Shown: positions 43,255-47,292 of the stretch, in pieces
Position numbering within the stretch: position 1 is the first letter of the stretch
Layout of the letters: each line of letters begins with the position of its first letter
NCBI GenBank assembly: GCA_023511795.1
Contig: JAIMAU010000002.1
Span: forward strand, 1-64,000
Reading direction: 5' to 3'
Length of the DNA stretch: 64,000 nt
Origin: Armatimonadota bacterium
Lineage (GTDB): Bacteria > Armatimonadota > UBA5829 > DTJY01
Made by a program: the position numbers and the translations under genes
Notes under the pieces: generated by a model
The model's database searches: none
What the model saw: only the letters and a program-made list of their open reading frames with translations
What the model was told of the DNA's origin: nothing

Positions 43255-45126
43255 TCAATTTGAGGAATGGCACATTCGGCAGTATTTCTCCTCATGGCAT
43301 TTGAAGCACGGAGAGCCTTGAGCAAGGCTGGCGCCGTGTTTCTTGTGCTCCATAATAAAGTTGGACGGATGCGGCATCTCTACCCCATGGCACTTCTGGC
43401 ATGAATCCTTACCATGGCACAGGTCGCAAAGTCCGGGCGAAGCCTTTCCTTGCTCGGAATGTTTTTTCTTAAATTCGCCCGCATGGGATGCGGGAGCTGC
43501 GCTGTGGCACTTAGCGCAATCAGAGGAATCATGACAGCGGAGGCATGCTGTTGACTCGGACTTTGCTGAATCCTTATGCCCCATCAACCAGCTTGGCTTG
43601 TGTGGCATCTCAACTTTGTGGCAATCAGAGCAACTTTGAGTTCTGTGGCAGGCTAAACAGGATTTAGTGTTTTTCAGTGCAGTTTTGCCGTGGGCCTTTA
43701 GCCAGTTACCCTTGTGTGAAGCAGGCATAGTGGTGGTATGGCATGACTCACAGAATCGCTCGTCATGACAGCCATAACAAGCCGACCGATTGCTGGCACT
43801 AGATCCATGCATCTTGACCCAATCTAAAGTATGGCTTTTTGGGCGACTGTTGCGATGACATGAGGTGCAGAAGTCATCTTGGTGGCAGCGCTGGCAGGTC
43901 TGTTTGCTTCTGAATGCGGCAGACGTATGTCTGGTTCGCCAGTTTTGTGGATGTGGCATGTCAAGGCCATGACAACTCCTGCAGTAATCTTTCGTATGGC
44001 ATGTTTCACACGTCTTTCTGCCTATGTTTGCCTGTGTTGGATGTCGCTTGACCCAGCTTGAATCGTGCGAAGTCGGGAGCTTTGTTTCATGGCATCTCAG
44101 ACAAAAGGCGGATTTGTGACAAGCCAGACAGCTTTCTGCATTTTGGGTGATTTGCCGACCGTGAATACAAGTCCAATTTGAATCCTTATGCGACGCGGGG
44201 ATCTTTGCTTGATGACATGCAATACAGAATCTTTCCTTATGGCAGTTTACGCAGTTTCTGGGATTCTTCTTTGCTAATTCTGGATGGGTTTTAATCCAAC
44301 CCAAGGGGTGAGCCGGTTGCTTATGTTTGTCGGAAGAGAGTTCTGTTGATATCTTGCTCGCGGTTGCAAAGCGATGACAATTCTTGCAGAACTCTTCGTT
44401 GTGGTACCTTTTGAGGTAGGCGTTATGCTTGGCAATCGCTTGCTTGTGTGTTGTTATCCATTCAGATGAAAACTTATCTGTTTGCTTTGACCTGAATGTC
44501 TCATGACATAGGTTGCAGGAATTGCTTGCTTTTCTGCCATCGTGGCAATCGAAACAGACGGTCATTTTGAGGATATTCTTAAGGGCATTCTTAAGAATAT
44601 CCTTTGTAGTTGCATCTGGATCGTGGACGATATTGTCATGGCAAAATGTGCACTCGATGCCTCTTTCTAGGTGTCTTCTGTGGGTAATCTTGAGGTTACG
44701 GTGGACTATTGTATCCGCTGTATTGGTGTGACATTTCTCACAATTGGCGTTCAAGATATTGGTTTGGATGTTCTTTGATTCATCACCAAGCTCAGTTTCG
44801 TATAGAAACTTTTTACCGTCGCCCCTCTTAGCACGTATCATGCTACCAATGCTTGGCATGACGTGGCATTGCTCACAGGGGACATGTTTATGGGAAGACA
44901 CGCGCCAGGTTTGGATGGCAAAGCGCATCTCGTGGCATGCAGTGCAGAAAATTGGCCTTTTTGAGTATACAACGCTGCCTGTAACGCCAATCAAAACAGG
45001 AGCCGCAAAGGCGAGGAGTAGCCACCAGCTCACAACCCATCGGCAAATGGGTATGGTAATTTTCGAAGTTAACCAGCGGCGAATAATTCCGCGCCCTTCT
45101 TCACTTTGCGATGATTGCATTCTCAT
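43255..45126 (-). CDS. 25-heme cytochrome c: NapC/NrfH-like N-terminus fused to tandem diheme repeats
   Basis: A 623-residue protein with 25 CxxCH heme-binding motifs by direct count. One membrane helix (about 26-52) anchors it. The first four hemes (first Cys61, FCTACHEM, then CEQCHVMP) look like a NapC/NrfH quinol dehydrogenase domain. Three more hemes follow, then nine tandem units of about 40 residues, each with two hemes a few residues apart and extra His residues in P-x-SH and W-x-x-x-H that could be distal ligands. The last unit is cut short after its hemes. It is expected to carry electrons across the periplasm. Its start overlaps the cytochrome b gene stop by four bases, so translation is coupled. 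Confidence 0.9.
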   Translation of the reverse strand: MRMQSSQSEEGRGIIRRWLTSKITIPICRWVVSWWLLLAFAAPVLIGVTGSVVYSKRPIFCTACHEMRFAIQTWRVSSHKHVPCEQCHVMPSIGSMIRAKRGDGKKFLYETELGDESKNIQTNILNANCEKCHTNTADTIVHRNLKITHRRHLERGIECTFCHDNIVHDPDATTKDILKNALKNILKMTVCFDCHDGRKASNSCNLCHETFRSKQTDKFSSEWITTHKQAIAKHNAYLKRYHNEEFCKNCHRFATASKISTELSSDKHKQPAHPLGWIKTHPELAKKNPRNCVNCHKERFCIACHQAKIPASHKDSNWTCIHGRQITQNAESCLACHKSAFCLRCHETKLPTSHDSSWVKRHPTQANIGRKTCETCHTKDYCRSCHGLDMPHPQNWRTRHTSAAFRSKQTCQRCHQDDFCTSCHRNSRPKSHTLDWVKMHGSSASNRSACYGCHDERFCESCHTTTMPASHKGNWLKAHGKTALKNTKSCLACHRTQSCSDCHKVEMPHKPSWLMGHKDSAKSESTACLRCHDSSDCAKCHSAAPASHAGEFKKKHSEQGKASPGLCDLCHGKDSCQKCHGVEMPHPSNFIMEHKKHGASLAQGSPCFKCHEEKYCRMCHSSN

Positions 45127-45833
45127 TCTTTTTCTGCCTGGTTAACTATGCGCTCGTATTCAAGCGGATGATTGTGCTTGATTTTGTCCTCGGATATTTT
45201 GCCGTCAATCCAGACTCTGTCCATAGGAAAATGTCCTGGTTTGAGATGCACATGGTACATATGCCAAATAAGGATGGTTAGGAACGCAAGCAATGCCTCC
45301 CAACTGTGTACTGCTCTTGCAACGTCAAGTGCCCAAAGCGGAAGAATGTTTATTGATTTGTCTTCAAACCAGAGTATAAAGCCAGTTAGAATCATCACTA
45401 CAGAGCCCCAGCTAACTGCGAAATACTCGAATTTTTCGATGTAATTGTATCGGTCGAACTTTGGCTTACTTTTAGCGAGAGCGAAGAAGTACTTAAGCAT
45501 ATGAAAAAGGTCTGTGAAGTCTTTCCATCTTGGAAGAAGTGCTCTGAACTCATTGCGTCCCTCATGGGTTAATGCAGTGTGGATAACGTGGTAAACGGCT
45601 AGGCATATTAAGATTATTGCGCCAACACGGTGTAGTATTGCCCGCGCTGTAAATCCACCCATTATTTGGATTACCGTGGCAGAAATTTGCGAATCTGAAT
45701 AGCGCACCGGCAGACCTGTAATAACAAGCAGAGTGAAGCTAAACATAAGCACAATGTGCTGAATTCTTCGATTTAAAGAGAACCGCTCGAAGTATCGTGT
45801 TTTTTCAGCTTGTCTTTTTTCTGCAAGCCCCAT
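45123..45833 (-). CDS. Membrane cytochrome b (formate dehydrogenase gamma/cytochrome b561-like)
   Basis: A 236-residue protein with four main membrane helices and His residues at helix positions suited to two b hemes: RRIQH in the first helix, LHRVG and VYHVIHT in the second, and HSWEALLAF plus WHMYHVH in the last. It resembles the gamma subunits of formate dehydrogenase and thiosulfate reductase, which exchange electrons with the quinone pool. Its start shares one base with the stop of the 11-heme gene, and its stop overlaps the 25-heme gene by four bases. The three genes therefore form a tight operon. Confidence 0.88.
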   Translation of the reverse strand: MGLAEKRQAEKTRYFERFSLNRRIQHIVLMFSFTLLVITGLPVRYSDSQISATVIQIMGGFTARAILHRVGAIILICLAVYHVIHTALTHEGRNEFRALLPRWKDFTDLFHMLKYFFALAKSKPKFDRYNYIEKFEYFAVSWGSVVMILTGFILWFEDKSINILPLWALDVARAVHSWEALLAFLTILIWHMYHVHLKPGHFPMDRVWIDGKISEDKIKHNHPLEYERIVNQAEKE

Positions 45834-47134
45834 TATCCGTTACCTCTCTTCTTGTTCCTTAAGTGCGCCAGTAGATCAAGCGTAATGTAACCACAAAAAG
45901 CAAGCATTATTAGAGAGACAAACACTCGATATGCTATGCCAACCCAGAAAACCACTATGTCCTTTTTGGGCGAGGGTTCTAAATGAACACTGCCCTTAGC
46001 AAAGTTCTGAGCATTGGTTTGGTGGCACTTGCCGCATACTTTGGGTAGGTTCTTCTTATTTGTTGCCGACCTAGAGTCTCTTGAGGGTTTGATGTCATGG
46101 GACCCATGGCAAGAAGCACAATTTGCCGCTAATATATTGCCATATCTATTTGCGATGCCATGATAGCTTATGTTATATGATGCTAGCCTGTTTGCAGGAA
46201 TTTTGTATTTTTCTTGAATCATTGGGTTCTCATGGCATTTAGAACAGGTCATTCGCACGTTGATAGGGTAAACCGTAGAAGCGGGATTGTAGCTCGAAAG
46301 TATTAAGTGGGTCCCGTGGCAATCGCTACATGCCGCCGCATCTAATATGCCACTCATGATTGCTTCACCGTGAATGCTTTTCTGGTAAGTTATTAGCTGC
46401 TTTCTATGACATCCCCCGCATGTTTTAGATATGTTAGCTTTGTTGACCAGTGACCTGGGGTTTTCAGGCGCAAGAATTTCGTGCGTCCCATGGCAATCGG
46501 TGCAAACTGCAGCAGGTAGAGGGCCGTTTGACTTGTTTAGCTTGCAGTGGACGCTCCTCGTATACAACTTAATTTTTTTTACATTAGTTAGGTTGTATCT
46601 AACGGCGGTGGCTGCGTCAGAGTGGCACTTGCCGCAGGTGACGACTATATTGGCACGCGAGACCATGGATCGCGGATCACGGGCTGGTCTGATGTCGTGG
46701 GTCCCGTGGCAATCTTTACAAAGCACTATTTTTTTGTTCCCTCGCCGGGCAGTTTGTGCGTGGACACTGGAAGCAAATTGGCGCATGAGTATGATATCTC
46801 TATCCCCATCGGCACTTCTCTTGCCATGACATCGGGTACACATAACGGGGGCAACATTTGGACGATGAGGCAATTCTGCGCCAAGTAAATCGGTGTGGCA
46901 GTCTGTGCACATCAAGGCATTATGAGACGATTTGGATAAAATTTCTGTGTCAACGTATAGTGAGACTCGCTTTCCTTCAGAGGTTTTGCTCAAACTCTGG
47001 GCGCTGTGGCATATAAGGCATTGAGAGTTGTCTGCAAGTGCGACTCCCGGAAGAAAAAAAGGAAACAAAGCCAAGAAAACGAGAAAACCGAGCGGTGGTG
47101 CTATGGTATTCAAAATTATAGAGTGTTTTTCCAT
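45833..47134 (-). CDS. 11-heme membrane-anchored cytochrome c
   Basis: A 433-residue exported protein with 11 CxxCH motifs by direct count, several as repeated CTDCHGTH/CGKCH pairs of the doubled-CxxCH type. A signal peptide (cleavage after VALA, near residue 35) starts it, and a C-terminal helix (about 400-425) anchors it, leaving the hemes in the periplasm or outside. I take ATG 47134; a TTG at 47152 is in frame. It is the first gene of the cytochrome operon, divergent from dnaK. A TATACT-like -10 lies just upstream but with an ill-defined -35. Confidence 0.88.
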   Translation of the reverse strand: MEKHSIILNTIAPPLGFLVFLALFPFFLPGVALADNSQCLICHSAQSLSKTSEGKRVSLYVDTEILSKSSHNALMCTDCHTDLLGAELPHRPNVAPVMCTRCHGKRSADGDRDIILMRQFASSVHAQTARRGNKKIVLCKDCHGTHDIRPARDPRSMVSRANIVVTCGKCHSDAATAVRYNLTNVKKIKLYTRSVHCKLNKSNGPLPAAVCTDCHGTHEILAPENPRSLVNKANISKTCGGCHRKQLITYQKSIHGEAIMSGILDAAACSDCHGTHLILSSYNPASTVYPINVRMTCSKCHENPMIQEKYKIPANRLASYNISYHGIANRYGNILAANCASCHGSHDIKPSRDSRSATNKKNLPKVCGKCHQTNAQNFAKGSVHLEPSPKKDIVVFWVGIAYRVFVSLIMLAFCGYITLDLLAHLRNKKRGNG

Positions 47135-47292
47135 TGGATTTTGATACGACAATCTCAGTTGGCGCTTTTAGTATATCATAACGAGAGATAAATTGGGAAG
47201 ACATGCGATTAACCTATGTGTTGGGAATCGAAAGTACTGAAAACTATTAAGGAAATTCCGATAATTTAAATGAAAAATTTTTTATCAAAACA

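Follow-up and report, generated by a model that had tools for sequence, protein, structure and literature searches.

Tetraheme cytochromes of the NrfH/CymA type oxidize quinol unaided, and the OmcS, OmcE and OmcZ nanowires, which also contain long conducting heme chains, are polymers of secreted subunits. CbcL joins a multiheme cytochrome c to a HydC/FdnI-like cytochrome b in one chain, and a 2018 survey reports 3–23 CxxCH motifs for members of the CbcL/MtrH/MtoC group (PMC6295460). ImcH of Geobacter (7 hemes) combines a NapC/NirT-like head with extra hemes at the inner membrane and functions in quinol oxidation; the same survey describes three transmembrane helices, a CX3CH motif and 6–10 hemes for proteins of this type (PMC6295460). 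In the Geobacter Ext cluster, ExtM (12 hemes), ExtN (10 hemes) and the cytochrome b ExtP are separate proteins (PMC5877670), and in the Geobacter model small diffusing cytochromes, PpcA-E, ferry electrons over the periplasm (PMC12307469). Here we describe a predicted 25-heme cytochrome from a member of the Armatimonadota. No known family with this exact head-plus-repeat layout was found in Pfam, NCBIfam or PDB, nor was the layout found in the open-licence literature.

The gene occupies 43255..45126 on the minus strand of the window, by which we mean the whole 64,000-nucleotide stretch analyzed, and encodes 623 residues from an ATG that overlaps the stop codon of the gene upstream (ATGA). A motif count on the translation of this ORF (45126-43255) gives exactly 25 CxxCH, confirming the number and coordinates proposed in an earlier note on this DNA, which had left the strand unstated. 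Seven motifs stand singly, at residues 61, 84, 129, 159, 191, 204 and 247. The other 18 form nine pairs (292/301, 333/342, 373/382, 411/420, 450/459, 490/499, 528/537, 567/576 and 607/616), with a spacing of 9 residues within pairs and 29–32 between them, as expected from that note's description of nine near-regular paired units of about 40 residues. When the same residues were shuffled in 2000 trials, the mean was 0.35 CxxCH and the maximum 4. The protein has 29 histidines besides those of its motifs. Comparison with a sister species gave a dN of 0.030 and a dS of 0.156 with no differences at motif cysteines or histidines, and the coding sequence is under purifying selection. A free cysteine in unit 1, Cys320 (44167-44169), is serine in the sister species, a probably neutral change.

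The features of a multiheme c-type cytochrome are all present, namely the 25 motifs, spare histidines, an N-terminal helix and cytochrome c maturation genes in the genome, and heme binding is predicted. The maturation genes are of the ResB and CcsA types; at L104:7153-13264, ResB and two Cytochrom_C_asm genes are grouped with the gene of a c554-like cytochrome that has 7 hemes and with genes for tetrapyrrole synthesis, including a glutamyl-tRNA reductase and a siroheme synthase domain. The other multiheme genes comprise at least this 7-heme cytochrome and two metallophosphoesterase-like tetrahemes (L057:10025-11485 and L058:9398-10639), which by eye have a 5'-nucleotidase/metallophosphoesterase-like N-terminus and carry four CxxCH each in the C-terminal region. 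As a separate observation, the window starts within a 16S rRNA copy (2-650), and another copy (L059; G000:C18:29186-31058) is 1873 nt long where the model has 1533 positions, so that insertions apparently account for about 340 nt of it.

The N-terminal part of the protein resembles NrfH. Hydropathy predicts a single transmembrane helix at about residues 29–48 (44983..45042, minus strand; 28–46 when the stop-to-stop ORF is used), which also appears in a poor AF2 model. The helix precedes a heme-1 site, CTACHEM at 61–67, and the protein thus has the anchor and CxxCH-x-M motif of the NapC/NirT/NrfH type. The first six CxxCH make up the head (44503..44946, minus strand): hemes 1–4 align to NrfH over residues 36–168, and a Pfam Cytochrome_C7 match covers residues 147–209, the other two hemes being c7-like. 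The four-heme, membrane-anchored NapC/NrfH-like head of the earlier note thus keeps its anchor and its NrfH-like N-terminus and gains two hemes. NrfH (2J7A, E 7.5e-9) was the sole solved relative found by phmmer in the PDB, and in that alignment M67, H79, K100 and H168 pair with NrfH M49, H61, K82 and H145. In NrfH these residues, like Asp89, are ligands or quinol-site residues. The head accordingly shares with NapC/NrfH/CymA (TIGR03153, PF03264; 2J7A) the N-terminal transmembrane segment, the CxxCH-x-M of heme 1, the quinol-site lysine and two distal histidines. It scores above the cut-off for PF03264 (26.6 bits versus 24.1) and below that for TIGR03153, the NrfH model (59.8 versus 134.2), and is best classified as a domain relative of NapC/NirT/NrfH, not an NrfH equivalog. 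Unlike NrfH, the protein adds two c7-type and 19 further hemes, has Phe107 at the position of Asp89, and has no NrfA in its operon; unlike ImcH, it has one transmembrane helix, no CX3CH that we could find, and repeats.

Between the head and the units lies a stretch (residues 238-291; 44254..44415, minus strand) that is degenerate by alignment with relatives (alignment A1), with heme 247 as the sole survivor. Where relatives have CxxCH, the window protein reads L238-K-R-Y241-H242 and S264-S-D-K267-H268, so that at both sites the cysteine pair is gone and the histidine kept; in the sister species the histidine of the first site is gone too. H273 and H281 are retained. All 16 head-bearing species outside this genus have exactly six hemes before the first full pair, and the window and sister species have seven, because the first unit lost one heme. 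Given the two vestigial sites, the 25-heme protein is a reduced form.

The remainder of the protein (43258..44253, minus strand) consists of nine repeats of a diheme unit some 40 residues long, each with CxxCH-x4-CxxCH followed by P, H and H, except the ninth, which is the doublet only. The doublet is followed by P-x-S-H or M-P-H-P and later by W/F-x3-H, and alignment of the other eight units gives invariant C, C, H, C, C, H, P, H and H. The extra histidines mentioned in the earlier note thus amount to two per unit, and two hemes with two further histidines would fit bis-His ligation. All nine occurrences of CxxCH-x4-CxxCH in the complete genome of 3.09 Mb fall inside this gene, and the reversed pattern, used as a control, does not occur. 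TRF found no tandem repeat of the unit at the DNA level, which indicates that the duplications are old, and a unit resembles, on average, its positional counterpart in another species more closely than it resembles units from other positions, suggesting that most duplications predate these species. Mutually related yet divergent repeats are what an old duplication predicts, in support of the unit duplication that the earlier note had put forward. An apparent three-unit super-period (SH, SH, PH) in the window was dropped, as relatives do not keep it. Searches for a profile of the unit array as such yielded none in Pfam, NCBIfam, PHROG or PDB, and viral contigs contained no match to either the family or the unit. 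Modeling of the full-length protein with AF2 without an alignment gave a pLDDT of 35; a 55-aa unit modeled with the units of this one protein stacked as a pseudo-alignment was of moderate quality (pLDDT 69.5) and had no Foldseek match in the PDB.

The 25-heme gene is the last of three on the minus strand, after genes for an 11-heme cytochrome and a cytochrome b561-like protein, and stops and starts overlap or adjoin throughout the trio. The 11-heme cytochrome (45833..47152, 439 aa) has a hydrophobic segment at each end; its listed start is TTG and the first ATG is codon 7. The cytochrome b561/formate dehydrogenase gamma-like protein (45123..45833, 236 aa) has four hydropathy peaks and matches PF01292 above cut-off (E 2e-8) and TIGR01583 below it (E 9e-15). 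By layout, and set beside CbcL by description, these two proteins correspond to the halves of CbcL. The locus differs from CbcL in that the c and b parts are split in two genes and a separate unit protein is added; a separate 20-32-heme unit protein beside a CbcL-type complex is not described in the portion of the 2018 survey used here (PMC6295460). In 16 of the 18 species with the head, the gene immediately upstream encodes a homologous cytochrome b, a count limited by the roughly 1.5 kb of flank covered at the other two loci. Five relatives (L026, L029, L031, L032 and L035) have the CbcL layout itself, with 8–10 hemes fused to PF01292, adjoining a head-plus-unit gene. At the level of the class, the 11-heme partner is present in all ten genomes with units and in 2/18 without them (Fisher p ~5e-6, with genomes treated as independent despite their kinship).

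These data support a model, which we hold to be somewhat more probable than its negation, in which the trio forms one inner-membrane, quinone-linked complex where a split, CbcL-like menaquinol dehydrogenase feeds a dedicated 25-heme periplasmic wire. Quinol would be oxidized by the dehydrogenase, whose two halves would be the cytochrome b and the 11-heme cytochrome, with the 25-heme protein, held at the inner membrane by its transmembrane helix and six-heme NrfH/c7-type head, serving as the wire of this pair. The earlier note had instead regarded the protein as a quinol oxidase and a wire fused in one chain, and indeed an NrfH-like head is joined to the array. If quinol were oxidized by that head, which would then feed the wire attached to it, the cytochrome b and its 11-heme partner would be an independent or accessory system. 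Tetrahemes of this type are known to act alone on quinol, and the equivalents of NrfH H61 and H145 are invariant, and those of M49 and K82 nearly so, in an 11-protein alignment (A1). However, the Asp89 equivalent is missing, the relative L026 lacks the heme-1 methionine (it reads CHEK), the genes of the trio are tightly coupled, and the same cytochrome b is found beside unit genes that have no NrfH head (L036, L037, L038, L040, L092-L094, L097 and L098). We therefore consider the head unlikely to be the oxidase. The cytochrome b/11-heme pair is the likelier entry point for quinol because it is the constant companion of the units, whereas the head is optional. In the preferred model of a split dehydrogenase with its wire, the head could be a second entry point or act only as anchor and relay. 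The reading in the earlier note is thus supported in part, and shifts from a lone head-plus-wire enzyme to the wire subunit of a CbcL-like complex.

The family has other members in the phylum. A search of 61 and then 291 of its genomes, after which the loci were read, found the same six-heme head followed by units in 18 species, and the protein, whose layout the earlier note called unusual, does not stand alone. Heme totals in these head-plus-unit proteins are 20, 25, 28, 30 or 32, with 28 the commonest among relatives, and we assign the 25-heme protein, from its sequence, to a family that has no name and whose members carry 20 to 32 hemes. One profile scan of genome contigs returned only weak NapC matches, in beta-proteobacterial MAGs. 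Units also occur without the NrfH head, in the lipoprotein-like L038 and L040 and after a c7-type start in L036, L037 and others. In three further proteins (L039:10168-12549, L041:3335-5629 and L042:6178-8400; Pfam matches for L041 and L042), about 6–7 diheme units, with 15 hemes c in all, follow a complete bc1-type cytochrome b and a mono-heme cytochrome c in one chain. The Geobacter Ext cluster, which is of the bc type, also has a cytochrome b, but the parts are fused here; the best NCBIfam match of L042 is ExtP, below cut-off (223.7 bits versus 290), and the NCBIfam models of Ext c-type proteins do not match the 25-heme protein. Two 26-heme proteins (L096:1-2250 and L099:1489-3849) have a different, longer NapC-like head, with 14 hemes ahead of the first diheme pair. 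We tentatively propose, at somewhat less than an even chance, that the unit, which has no solved relative, is an add-on wire module present in about 5–13 copies on at least three membrane bases (an NrfH/c7 head, a lipoprotein or c7-type start, and a bc1-type cytochrome b), usually together with a CbcL-like cytochrome b/multiheme complex, and that it gives single-chain, periplasm-crossing wires that dispense with diffusing carriers.

How far such a wire could reach depends on the cell envelope. The earlier note had raised the possibility of spanning a wall; Omp85 is present in the genome, the cell very probably has an outer membrane and looks diderm, and that idea does not apply. Neighboring hemes in multiheme proteins lie about 9 or 11 Å apart, Fe-Fe (PMC11936953). 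The 19 hemes past the head would thus form a path of at most roughly 180–200 Å and all 25 one of at most roughly 240–260 Å, at the upper limit enough for most or all of a periplasm, although the two vestigial sites near the head could break a strictly linear chain. In our model the nine units, with bis-His hemes, pass electrons outward across the periplasm to a putative acceptor, located at the outer membrane or farther out. The operon contains no terminal reductase, and the searches made found no MtrB-type porin. The absence of a recognized outer-membrane conduit or terminal reductase in these searches, like the high density of hemes, would suit a protein that chiefly stores electrons in the periplasm as a capacitor instead of conducting them far. 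Two observations speak against this, the average conservation of unit positions from one species to another and the association of the protein with a quinol-linked complex, and we judge storage as the main role improbable, although storing and conducting electrons are compatible in one protein.

The complex might also run in reverse, taking electrons from outside or from the periplasm to reduce the quinone pool. Direction cannot be read from sequence, and the 2018 survey places CbcL/MtoC/MtrH homologs in Fe(III) reducers and Fe(II) oxidizers alike (PMC6295460). The window, however, also encodes beta-galactosidase-like and sugar dehydrogenase-like proteins, weak signs of a sugar-degrading heterotroph in which quinol oxidation would be favored, and we regard reverse flow as quite improbable. 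An extracellular wire of the OmcS, OmcE or OmcZ kind is argued against by the membrane anchor: those are polymers of secreted subunits, whereas the 25-heme protein is one membrane-anchored chain, and PDB searches found no sequence match between them.

Altogether, the 25-heme protein is probably a built-in lead by which, together with the products of its two neighboring genes, electrons from respiration leave the inner membrane and cross the periplasm. The distribution of its units suggests that a heme-wire module has moved between differing quinol-oxidizing bases. One anchored chain would hold enough hemes to cross the periplasm, and since the number of units varies by species, the relation between wire length and conduction may be testable through the units themselves.
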